Shown: positions 3,158 through 41,501 of the stretch, piece after piece
Position numbering within the stretch: the first letter of the stretch is position 1
How the letters are laid out: the number at the start of each line of letters is the position of its first letter
NCBI RefSeq assembly: GCF_000336935.1
Contig: NZ_AOME01000051.1
Location: forward strand, 122,022 to 186,021
Length of the DNA: 64,000 nt
Source of the DNA: Halococcus salifodinae DSM 8989
GTDB taxonomy: Archaea > Halobacteriota > Halobacteria > Halobacteriales > Halococcaceae
Direction: 5' to 3'
The notes under the pieces: model-generated
Told to the model about the DNA's origin: nothing
The model's input: the letters and a program-made list of their open reading frames with translations, nothing else
Database searches by the model: none
Program-made: the position numbers and the translations under genes

Positions 3158-3171
3158 TTAGGGCAGCCTAA
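3158..3171. promoter_or_regulatory. Iron-box-like operator (DtxR/IdeR/SirR type)
   Basis: TTAGGGCAGCCTAA is a perfect TTAGG-N4-CCTAA inverted repeat between the TATA and the predicted transcript start. A bound repressor would block initiation. The DtxR-family consensus is TTAGG-type half sites, and haloarchaea have DtxR-like iron regulators. The same arrangement occurs at 39323-39336. Confidence 0.7.
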
Positions 3172-3176
3172 ACCGT

Positions 3177-3260
3177 ATGATGAACGACGAGCGCTCGCGT
3201 GTCCTTCTCGGCAACGACACAGTGGGCTCGGGTGGATCGGGTGATCGGTGGTTCGTATGA
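3177..3260 (+). CDS. Possible 27-residue leader peptide of the FecCD gene
   Basis: From ATG 3177, 27 codons (starting MMNDERSRVLLGND, ending DRWFV) run to a TGA that overlaps the permease ATG as ATGA. The TATA position makes this ATG the expected first codon of a leaderless mRNA, so ribosomes may reach the permease start by termination-reinitiation. No homology is recognised. Confidence 0.45.
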   Translation: MMNDERSRVLLGNDTVGSGGSGDRWFV

Positions 3261-39261: not shown

Positions 39262-39322
39262 GCCACGCCGACGATCCAGAGTCGGCCACGAACTCGGTCG
39301 GTGCGGATGCCAATCCCTAAGA

Positions 39323-39336
39323 TTAGGCTTGCCTAA
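39323..39336. promoter_or_regulatory. Iron-box-like operator (DtxR/IdeR/SirR type)
   Basis: TTAGGCTTGCCTAA is a perfect TTAGG-N4-CCTAA inverted repeat, 12 nt before ATG 39349. It has the same half-sites and spacer length as 3158-3171. Confidence 0.72.
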
Positions 39337-39348
39337 CGCGCGCCGTAC

Positions 39349-39918
39349 ATGGAACTCACGCGCCGGGACGCGCTCGCGGCGCTCGCCGGCGGCAGCGTCG
39401 TCGGTGGCGGTGGAGCGGCGGCGATCGGACGGAACGGAGAAGCGACGAGTGGGGCGCAAACGGAGACGGACGACGGATCGTCGAACGTGGCGGATGCGTC
39501 GTTTTCGGCGGTGCGTGACCCTCTCGTCGCGGTCGCGCACGTCGTCTACCCCGACGAGATCACGGGGATCGAGACGTTCGTCGAAACCTACGCACTCGGG
39601 CGTATCGAGGAGCGAGCTGAGTATCGAAACGGTGTCGAACGGGCGGTCGCCGCGATGGACGACCGCGCGGAATCGTGGTACGGCGGGCGATACGCGAGCC
39701 TCGACGCCGAGACTCGGGACGCGGTGCTGCGCGAGATGGGGACCGACACCGCCGATCCCGTTCCTGATGGGTCGGCCGCCGAACGGGTGCGGTACTACGT
39801 GGTGAACGAGCTGCTATACGCGCTCTACACCTCGCCCGCGGGCGGGGAGCTCGTCGGGATCGAGAACCCTCAGGGCCATCCCGGCGGGCACGAGAGCTAC
39901 CAGCACGGACCACGATGA
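39349..39918 (+). CDS. Gluconate 2-dehydrogenase subunit 3-like, Tat-exported
   Basis: 189 residues. The N-terminus MELTRRDALAALAGGSVVGGGGAAA is a twin-arginine signal. The mature part (LVAVAHVVYPDEITGIETFVETYALGRIEERAEYRNGVERAVAAMDD, then NELLYALYTSPAGGELVGIENPQGHPGG) matches gluconate-2-dehydrogenase subunit 3 / small-subunit proteins that chaperone and co-export the GMC catalytic subunit. It overlaps that subunit's gene by ATGA at 39915-39918. A perfect iron box is immediately upstream. Confidence 0.88.
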   Translation: MELTRRDALAALAGGSVVGGGGAAAIGRNGEATSGAQTETDDGSSNVADASFSAVRDPLVAVAHVVYPDEITGIETFVETYALGRIEERAEYRNGVERAVAAMDDRAESWYGGRYASLDAETRDAVLREMGTDTADPVPDGSAAERVRYYVVNELLYALYTSPAGGELVGIENPQGHPGGHESYQHGPR

Positions 39919-41501
39919 GCGATGCGGACCGGACGCCCTCGGACGCGCCCGACGTCTGCGTGATCGGGGCGGGCCCCGCGGGCGCGCTCTGCGCTCATCG
40001 ACTTGCCGAGCGCGGTCACGACGTCGTGATCCTCGAAGCGGGGCCCCGCTTTTCGTTCGAAGATCGCCCCGAGCGAATGGAGCGCGCGATCCGGCCTGGC
40101 GACGACGACCGGAGCGTCTGGGACATGGGCGGCGAGCGCGACGCCTACGCCTCGACCGGCCCGCGGTCGTACCCGCTGAACCGTTCGCGGGTGAAGGGCG
40201 TCGGCGGGACGAGCCTCCACTGGCAGGGGATGGTGATGCGCCTCCACGAGGCCGACTTCGAGCGACGGAGCCGCGACGGCGTCGCCGCGGACTGGCCCAT
40301 CGACTACGCCGACCTCCGGCCGTACTACGCGGCCGCCGAGCGCGCGTTCGGCGTGGCGGGGGCCGTCGACAACCCGTTCGCGCCGCCGCGCGAGGAGCCG
40401 TACCCCCTCCCGGCGTTCCCGCCCTCCTACAGCGACTCGATCTTCGCCGAGGCGTGTGAGGAGCTCGAAATCACCACCCACTCGGTACCGAACGCACGCA
40501 ACTCCGAGCCCTACGACGGCCGGTCGGCCTGTGTCGGCTACGGCACCTGTAAACCCGTCTGCGCCTCGGGGGCGAAGTACGACGCGACCGTCCACATCCG
40601 GAAGGCCGAGGCGGCGGGTGTGCGCGTCATCGACCGTGCTCCGGTCCAGCGCCTCGAAACGGACGGCAAGGGACGAGTGACGCGCGCGGTGTACGCGACG
40701 CCCGACGGCGAACACAGCCAGGAGGCACGCCGGTTCGTGATCGCCTGCGGCGGCGTCGAGACGCCTCGCCTCCTCCTGCTCTCTGATTCCTCGGACCATC
40801 CCGATGGACTCGCCAATTCGAGCGGTCTCGTGGGCCGGTACTTCACCGAACACTGCTTCGCGGGCGTCGGCGGCCGGCTCGATCGGGCGACCCGCCAGAA
40901 GCACGTCGGGTTCAACACCACCGAGAGCCACCAGTTCTACGACGCCGAGGGAACGAACCCGATCAAGCTCGAGTTCTTCAACTACGCCGGCCCGTCGCCC
41001 GTCGAGACGGCGCTCTCGGGGGACGAATGGGGCGACGCGCTCCTCGACTCGCTCCGGGACGCCTACGGAACCCACGTCACCGTCGGCGGGCTGATCGGCC
41101 AAGTGCCACGAAAGGAAAACCGCGTGACGCTCGATCGCACGAAAACCGACGATCACGGCAATCCGGTGCCCGACGTCCGGTGGTCGATCGGCGACCGTAC
41201 GAAAAAAAGCATCCGGCGGGCGAACTGTATCCAGCGATCGATCCTCGACGAACTCGGGGCCGAAATCGAGTGGACCGTCGGCCCCGAGAACACCGGGCCG
41301 GCGTTCCATCACATGGGCACCACACGGATGGGGACCGATCCGGCATCGAGCGTCGTAGACCCGGAACTACGGACCCACGACGTCGAGAATCTCCACGTCG
41401 CCTCCAGCAGCGTGTTCGTCACCGGCGGCGCGATGAACCCCACGCTCACCATCGCCGCACTCGCGCTGAAGGCGGCCGACCACGTCGATGTGGCGCTCTG
41501 A
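39915..41501 (+). CDS. GMC oxidoreductase, FAD plus probable iron-sulfur cluster
   Basis: A 528-residue flavoprotein dehydrogenase. FAD-binding VCVIGAGPAGALCAHRLAERGHDVVILEAGP is at residues about 15-46. Cys206, Cys212 and Cys216 (CVGYGTCKPVC, C-x5-C-x3-C) have the spacing I recall for the [3Fe-4S] ligands of bacterial FAD glucose dehydrogenase. The catalytic His is in HHMGTTRMG, and NPTLT supplies the partner Asn. It has no signal of its own; export would be as a passenger of the Tat-targeted small subunit. No cytochrome subunit gene follows, so the electron acceptor is unknown. Likely substrate: a sugar or sugar acid outside the membrane. Confidence 0.9.
   Translation: MSDADRTPSDAPDVCVIGAGPAGALCAHRLAERGHDVVILEAGPRFSFEDRPERMERAIRPGDDDRSVWDMGGERDAYASTGPRSYPLNRSRVKGVGGTSLHWQGMVMRLHEADFERRSRDGVAADWPIDYADLRPYYAAAERAFGVAGAVDNPFAPPREEPYPLPAFPPSYSDSIFAEACEELEITTHSVPNARNSEPYDGRSACVGYGTCKPVCASGAKYDATVHIRKAEAAGVRVIDRAPVQRLETDGKGRVTRAVYATPDGEHSQEARRFVIACGGVETPRLLLLSDSSDHPDGLANSSGLVGRYFTEHCFAGVGGRLDRATRQKHVGFNTTESHQFYDAEGTNPIKLEFFNYAGPSPVETALSGDEWGDALLDSLRDAYGTHVTVGGLIGQVPRKENRVTLDRTKTDDHGNPVPDVRWSIGDRTKKSIRRANCIQRSILDELGAEIEWTVGPENTGPAFHHMGTTRMGTDPASSVVDPELRTHDVENLHVASSSVFVTGGAMNPTLTIAALALKAADHVDVAL

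Follow-up and report, generated by a model that had tools for sequence, protein, structure and literature searches.

Why should two genes resembling the core of an extracellular sugar dehydrogenase stand directly behind a predicted operator of an iron-dependent repressor, with no gene for a cytochrome subunit beside them? This question is raised by a locus of Halococcus salifodinae DSM 8989 that lies in the window, i.e. the whole 64,000-nucleotide stretch of DNA that was analysed. A perfect TTAGG-CTTG-CCTAA iron box (TTAGGCTTGCCTAA, 39323–39336, +), predicted from its sequence, its genomic copies and the orthologous loci to be the operator of a DtxR-family repressor, is followed after 12 nt by the ATG (39349) of a 189-aa small subunit (39349–39918, +). 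This protein belongs to PF13618 (Gluconate_2-dh3) and begins with the Tat-type signal MELTRRDALAAL. Its stop codon overlaps, within an ATGA (39915–39918), the start of a 528-aa catalytic subunit (39915–41501, +), a GMC oxidoreductase that has a FAD-binding N-terminus and lacks a signal peptide of its own. An earlier interpretation of the bare DNA (hereafter the sequence-only reading) had described the box, the 12-nt spacing, the overlap and the Tat-type small subunit, and all of them were found again when the sequence was re-read. RefSeq calls one product a 'gluconate 2-dehydrogenase subunit 3 family protein' and the other a 'GMC family oxidoreductase', names that give no hint of iron. The flanking genes, which encode an FAA hydrolase (upstream) and HflX (downstream), were rejected as partners because they are inconsistent neighbours and have no box.

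The window contains two perfect boxes, against 0.10 in shuffled sequences even when one mismatch is allowed, and the genome contains 11, against three for the reversed pattern. At least eight of these 11 boxes precede genes of siderophore or ferric-iron uptake. The boxed genes of this genome include those encoding a siderophore/B12-type FecCD permease (second perfect box of the window, 3158–3171, +), a FecE-type ATPase, ferrichrome-binding-like lipoproteins, a diaminobutyrate aminotransferase (siderophore synthesis), an FbpA-type ferric-iron-binding protein and an RGP-like enzyme. The box at 3158 is located 5 nt before a 27-codon ORF (MMNDERSRVLLGNDTVGSGGSGDRWFV, 3177–3260), possibly a leader peptide or a remnant, that overlaps the start of the permease gene by an ATGA. 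Another perfect box of this genome (C73:31997; L005:15998–16211) is found 8 nt before a 63-aa ORF, near a Dps-like gene.

The box is also conserved well beyond this genome. Among 104 distinct haloarchaeal loci with enough upstream sequence, 95 carry a perfect box at the equivalent place and seven of the other nine a box with one mismatch, whereas three control palindromes and a control region further downstream all gave no match (0/104). The 902 kb covered by 80 haloarchaeal loci contain 126 perfect boxes, versus 0.2 expected from base composition and one occurrence of a control palindrome. A chance palindrome in front of an unregulated housekeeping operon, in favour of which only the shortness of the motif speaks, is already refuted by this conservation and can be set aside with near certainty. 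The sequence-only reading had recognized a DtxR-type site and advised searching other haloarchaea for the operator together with the gene pair; judged by its conservation and by the iron-uptake genes that share it, the box can be regarded as a genuine iron box of this type. It is linked to one form of the enzyme: it is absent from all nine paralogous small subunit–GMC pairs or GMC genes examined (54–65% identity), versus present in 18 of 20 orthologues of the same set. Genomes bearing these paralogues mostly hold a closer GMC homologue too. The paralogous pairs (L153, L161–L167 and L118), which occur in several haloarchaea and keep the Cys spacing where checked, would represent a sister enzyme that does not belong to the iron regulon.

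The position of the box indicates the probable direction of control. It directly follows a BRE/TATA-like promoter element (CAATCCCTAAGA, 39311–39322, +) corresponding to the consensus CAA.ccatAAGT that stands immediately 5' of the box in the 95 loci. In most orthologous loci, the box is separated from the first ATG of the operon by 7–13 nt, and at most boxed uptake genes of this genome by 5–17 nt from the start codon. As the ATG follows at a distance compatible with the leaderless transcripts of haloarchaea, we infer that the operon is transcribed without a leader and that the box lies inside the core promoter, i.e. in the layout of a repressor site. Since this geometry is that of the uptake genes, the enzyme is predicted to be repressed when iron is plentiful and made when it is scarce. 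Two Fe_dep_repr_C proteins are encoded in the genome. The sequence-only reading had viewed the enzyme as iron-rationed, that is, as a common extracellular sugar dehydrogenase produced chiefly in the presence of the iron that it needs. The predicted Fe–S cluster would suit such a behaviour, and DtxR-family proteins are able to activate genes too. However, an activator would be expected to bind on the 5' side of the BRE/TATA element, and a box placed in the core promoter as at the uptake genes suits repression, so that this reversed control appears very unlikely. The locus resembles the haloarchaeal DtxR-family iron regulon (Idr1/Idr2/SirR/TroR), in which a conserved palindromic promoter box is common to siderophore and ferric-iron transport genes, and differs from those transport genes in that the box would control an oxidoreductase as well. 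Leyn and Rodionov are said to have described, in 2015, a regulon signal of fhu genes in haloarchaea. A literature search retrieved no paper tying a haloarchaeal GMC enzyme to iron; published regulon lists may already include the box.

The catalytic subunit matches both GMC_oxred_N and GMC_oxred_C, and its best matches in the PDB are the FAD-glucose dehydrogenase of B. cepacia (BcGDH; 6a2u/8grj, E 8e-87) followed by the fructose dehydrogenase of Gluconobacter (7w2j, E 2e-79). It shares with them the full-length GMC fold, the FAD site, three Cys of the [3Fe-4S] type and a His/Asn pair, as expected of the GMC subunit of a three-subunit FAD/[3Fe-4S]/cytochrome c complex. Cys206, Cys212 and Cys216 (C-x5-C-x3-C, 40530–40562, +; Cys codons at 40530, 40548 and 40560), which the sequence-only reading had proposed as ligands, align with Cys212/218/222, the [3Fe-4S] ligands of BcGDH (PMC6719666), and can be predicted to play the same role. 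In the same way, His465 and Asn508 (41307–41438, +) align with the catalytic His476/Asn519 of BcGDH and form the predicted catalytic pair. Poor conservation of the three Cys would have spoken against a cluster, but no substitution of them occurs in any of 110 homologues, and His465 and Cys181 are equally constant; Asn508 is found in at least 108. BcGDH Cys213 has no equivalent here. At one locus (L160, G254), the GMC gene is in two frames behind an intact box, possibly as a pseudogene or through an assembly error.

The small subunit matches PF13618 with 29.9 bits (cut-off 23.4). Its N-terminus shows a twin-arginine motif followed by a hydrophobic stretch, and R5, R6 and D7 are invariant in 42 of 42 homologues, in agreement with the Tat-type signal put forward earlier and with a predicted export. 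Like the reference operons of Pantoea and Caballeronia, the locus encodes a Tat-type small subunit directly upstream of the GMC protein, and it shows the arrangement of PF13618–GMC pairs, with the PF13618 gene directly 5' of the GMC gene. The small subunits of the cytochrome-bearing reference operons, however, belong to PF12318. Comparison by hhalign revealed no homology to PF12318-type references beyond the signal, and a Foldseek search of the PDB with the AF2 model, which has a confident helical core, found no match and in particular no solved hitch-hiker protein. A hitch-hiker of the BcGDH type is thus ruled out at the family level. As the small subunit is of PF13618 and not of PF12318, the three-subunit enzyme is a relative with a different complex. 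Of the likeness to three-subunit dehydrogenases drawn earlier, the part concerning the Cys set and the His/Asn pair of the GMC protein stands, and the part concerning the rest of the complex does not, the small subunit being of another Pfam family than in BcGDH or fructose dehydrogenase-type complexes and the cytochrome being absent.

Unlike BcGDH and fructose dehydrogenase, the enzyme is indeed encoded without a multihaem cytochrome c subunit, such as that found in the Pantoea reference operon. No cytochrome c gene adjoins the pair in the 64-kb window, none belongs to the recurrent neighbours of haloarchaeal pairs, and a Pfam search found no PF13442 cytochrome domain in the genome, which rules out a partner of this kind encoded elsewhere. 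The sequence-only reading was therefore right about the absence but not about its being special to this operon: haloarchaea use halocyanin as a one-electron carrier (PMC8305020), and a pair on plasmid pPHRS4 of Paraburkholderia caledonica (L178) also has no adjoining cytochrome gene. Haloarchaea in general lack cytochrome c, and its absence is ordinary for this enzyme. The Paraburkholderia pair shares the PF13618 small subunit, the C-x5-C-x3-C motif and the His/Asn pair, but shows only 34% identity, sits among carbohydrate genes (GH15, SDR) and has a small subunit whose profile similarity to that of the window is weak (E 0.0015, probability 17%). No acceptor gene is linked to the small subunit–GMC pair.

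The nature of the acceptor bears on a first serious alternative, according to which the place of the enzyme in the regulon would reflect energy metabolism and not uptake: with only three Fe, it would feed electrons from sugar directly to halocyanin or menaquinone when the iron-rich respiratory complexes are reduced. When starved of iron, Haloferax volcanii indeed reduces the levels of Nuo subunits and of further Fe proteins (PMC11349517), halocyanin is available as a carrier, and 13 cupredoxin-domain matches were found in the genome studied here. Such iron-sparing respiration nevertheless seems unlikely, as the conserved neighbours of the pair encode a ferric-iron importer and glycosyltransferases, not respiratory proteins or halocyanins.

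These neighbours, iron import and glycosylation genes, together with the iron box, distinguish the pair from BcGDH and fructose dehydrogenase. Across haloarchaea, the recurrent ones encode, besides an FbpA-type substrate-binding protein (SBP) and an RGP-like enzyme, a dolichyl-phosphate hexose transferase (DPhHexT, NF041391) and a membrane protein of the GT39/PMT-like type that contains DUF7846. An FbpA-like gene is located within 5 kb of the pair in 31 of 80 loci, and the FbpA-type copy of the present genome matches ferric-iron-binding proteins at 5.6e-50. The most complete picture is given by plasmid pJOR178 of Salarchaeum, where a single array comprises RGP, SBP-permease-ATPase-GT39, small subunit-GMC and DPhHexT, four units that are each preceded by a perfect box. 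Plasmids of Halobaculum harbour a similar array, boxed before small subunit-GMC and before RGP; in two of them (L169:16730–19168 and L171:13744–16182), a hypothetical protein of ~812 aa is encoded between GMC and RGP. In the genome studied here, the rest of the module (DPhHexT, GT39, ATPase, permease, SBP and RGP) is carried by contig C73, with boxes before SBP and RGP and a one-mismatch box before DPhHexT. DPhHexT and RGP genes are often boxed across haloarchaeal loci.

In a group including Haloarculaceae and others, the small subunit gene lies away from the GMC gene, which itself directly follows a box. Loss of the small subunit from Haloarculaceae could be ruled out: the PF13618 model is too insensitive for these proteins, and a lineage profile used in its place found them in 15 of 15 genomes searched. 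In all 10 regions examined from genomes with this split, the small subunit gene ends an SBP-permease-ATPase-GT39 run and shares its strand. Perfect boxes precede RGP and/or SBP in these regions (the sole box of L190 is before RGP), and the unlinked small subunit, which has no box of its own, is thus not outside the iron regulon but closes a boxed importer cluster. Given this gene order, the importer run and the small subunit are probably one transcript. As the GMC gene is itself boxed, both subunits appear iron-controlled in two different arrangements. The small subunit–GMC pair thus seems to be part of a conserved iron-boxed module with an FbpA-type importer, GT39, DPhHexT and an RGP-type enzyme. 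The pair and an FbpABC-type ferric-iron ABC importer have boxes, cluster or operon, and genomes in common, and we know of no description of Fbp importers associated with an exported dehydrogenase and glycosyltransferases. This link to the importer goes beyond what the single sequence available to the sequence-only reading could show.

A GMC homologue is encoded by 301 of 394 haloarchaeal genomes and is absent from 93, including six of the nine belonging to the genus of the window; the enzyme is therefore not essential for iron uptake. Its orthologues occur in several Haloferax species and in Halobacterium salinarum. GMC and GT39/DUF7846 are both present in 297 genomes and both missing in 82, only 15 being discordant (Fisher p 7e-67, a statistic that ignores kinship). 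Four genera (g13, g19, g28 and g31) each mix double-positive and double-negative genomes, i.e. show double losses, and the co-occurrence therefore does not reflect one old split. In the genus of the window (g1), GT39 is found in seven of nine genomes and GMC in only three of these, which provides a natural set on the cost of losing the enzyme.

The co-occurrence with GT39 is near-perfect, the two genes are at most 15 kb apart in 42 of the 70 genomes for which both places are listed, and the frequent boxes before DPhHexT and RGP point the same way. This would fit a second serious alternative, in which the GMC enzyme oxidizes a hexose that DPhHexT and GT39 attach to a protein or lipid of the cell surface. 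The envelope would then be remodelled under iron regulation, with a connection to iron that may be indirect. However, the FbpA-type importer is found within the same units, no glycan target is known, and GT39 occurs without GMC in 11 genomes. A purely envelope-directed role thus appears as improbable as iron-sparing respiration.

As the enzyme travels with a ferric-iron importer across haloarchaea, it probably helps to obtain scarce iron. On balance, we favour, with some reserve, the view that this FAD/[3Fe-4S] dehydrogenase is exported, belongs to the iron-scarcity regulon of haloarchaea and serves ferric-iron acquisition with the FbpA-type importer. Taken as a whole, its functioning could be viewed as follows. 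When Fe(II) is plentiful, a DtxR-family repressor would bind the box, which occupies the core promoter immediately downstream of the TATA-like element, and thereby prevent transcription. When iron becomes scarce, both subunits would be produced, and the Tat pathway would export the FAD/[3Fe-4S] enzyme in its folded state, with the small subunit as carrier. Outside the cell, the enzyme would oxidize a sugar or another alcohol and hand the electrons over, via its [3Fe-4S] cluster, to an acceptor other than a cytochrome, working with the FbpA-type Fe(III) ABC importer, GT39, DPhHexT and the RGP-type enzyme. Two chemistries can be proposed: the electrons may mobilize Fe(III), or a sugar, either free or the hexose added by DPhHexT/GT39, may be oxidized into an Fe(III)-binding product. 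Most likely, the enzyme would supply Fe(III)-mobilizing electrons or make such an Fe(III)-binding oxidized sugar. More tentatively, the scarcity-made exported enzyme, the dolichyl-hexose/GT39 glycosylation and the FbpA-type importer may form one system, in which oxidation of a sugar, either secreted or at the cell surface, would serve the importer by yielding a ligand of Fe(III) or electrons that release it. Several points speak against these proposals: an Fe–S enzyme made under iron scarcity costs iron, the pair has no linked acceptor gene, the small subunit resembles no solved hitch-hiker protein in its fold, 93 haloarchaeal genomes do without the enzyme, GT39 is more widespread than GMC in the genus of the window, and the study of the H. 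volcanii iron-starvation proteome (PMC11349517) lists no GMC enzyme among its proteins changed more than 10-fold.

Iron acquisition by haloarchaea is poorly understood. In H. volcanii, a strain without a strongly induced candidate siderophore exporter grows the same under iron scarcity, which led the authors to suggest alternative mechanisms (PMC11349517). The module described here offers a definite candidate that lends itself to testing. Present in some three quarters of haloarchaeal genomes, it would place a predicted exported dehydrogenase and a ferric-iron importer under a common switch, and it gives an iron context to orphan genes such as those of GT39/DUF7846, DPhHexT and the RGP-like 'alpha-1,4-glucan-protein synthase'. 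If the enzyme, the glycosylation proteins and the importer do act as one system, they would constitute an iron-acquisition route distinct from both siderophores and classical ferric reductases.
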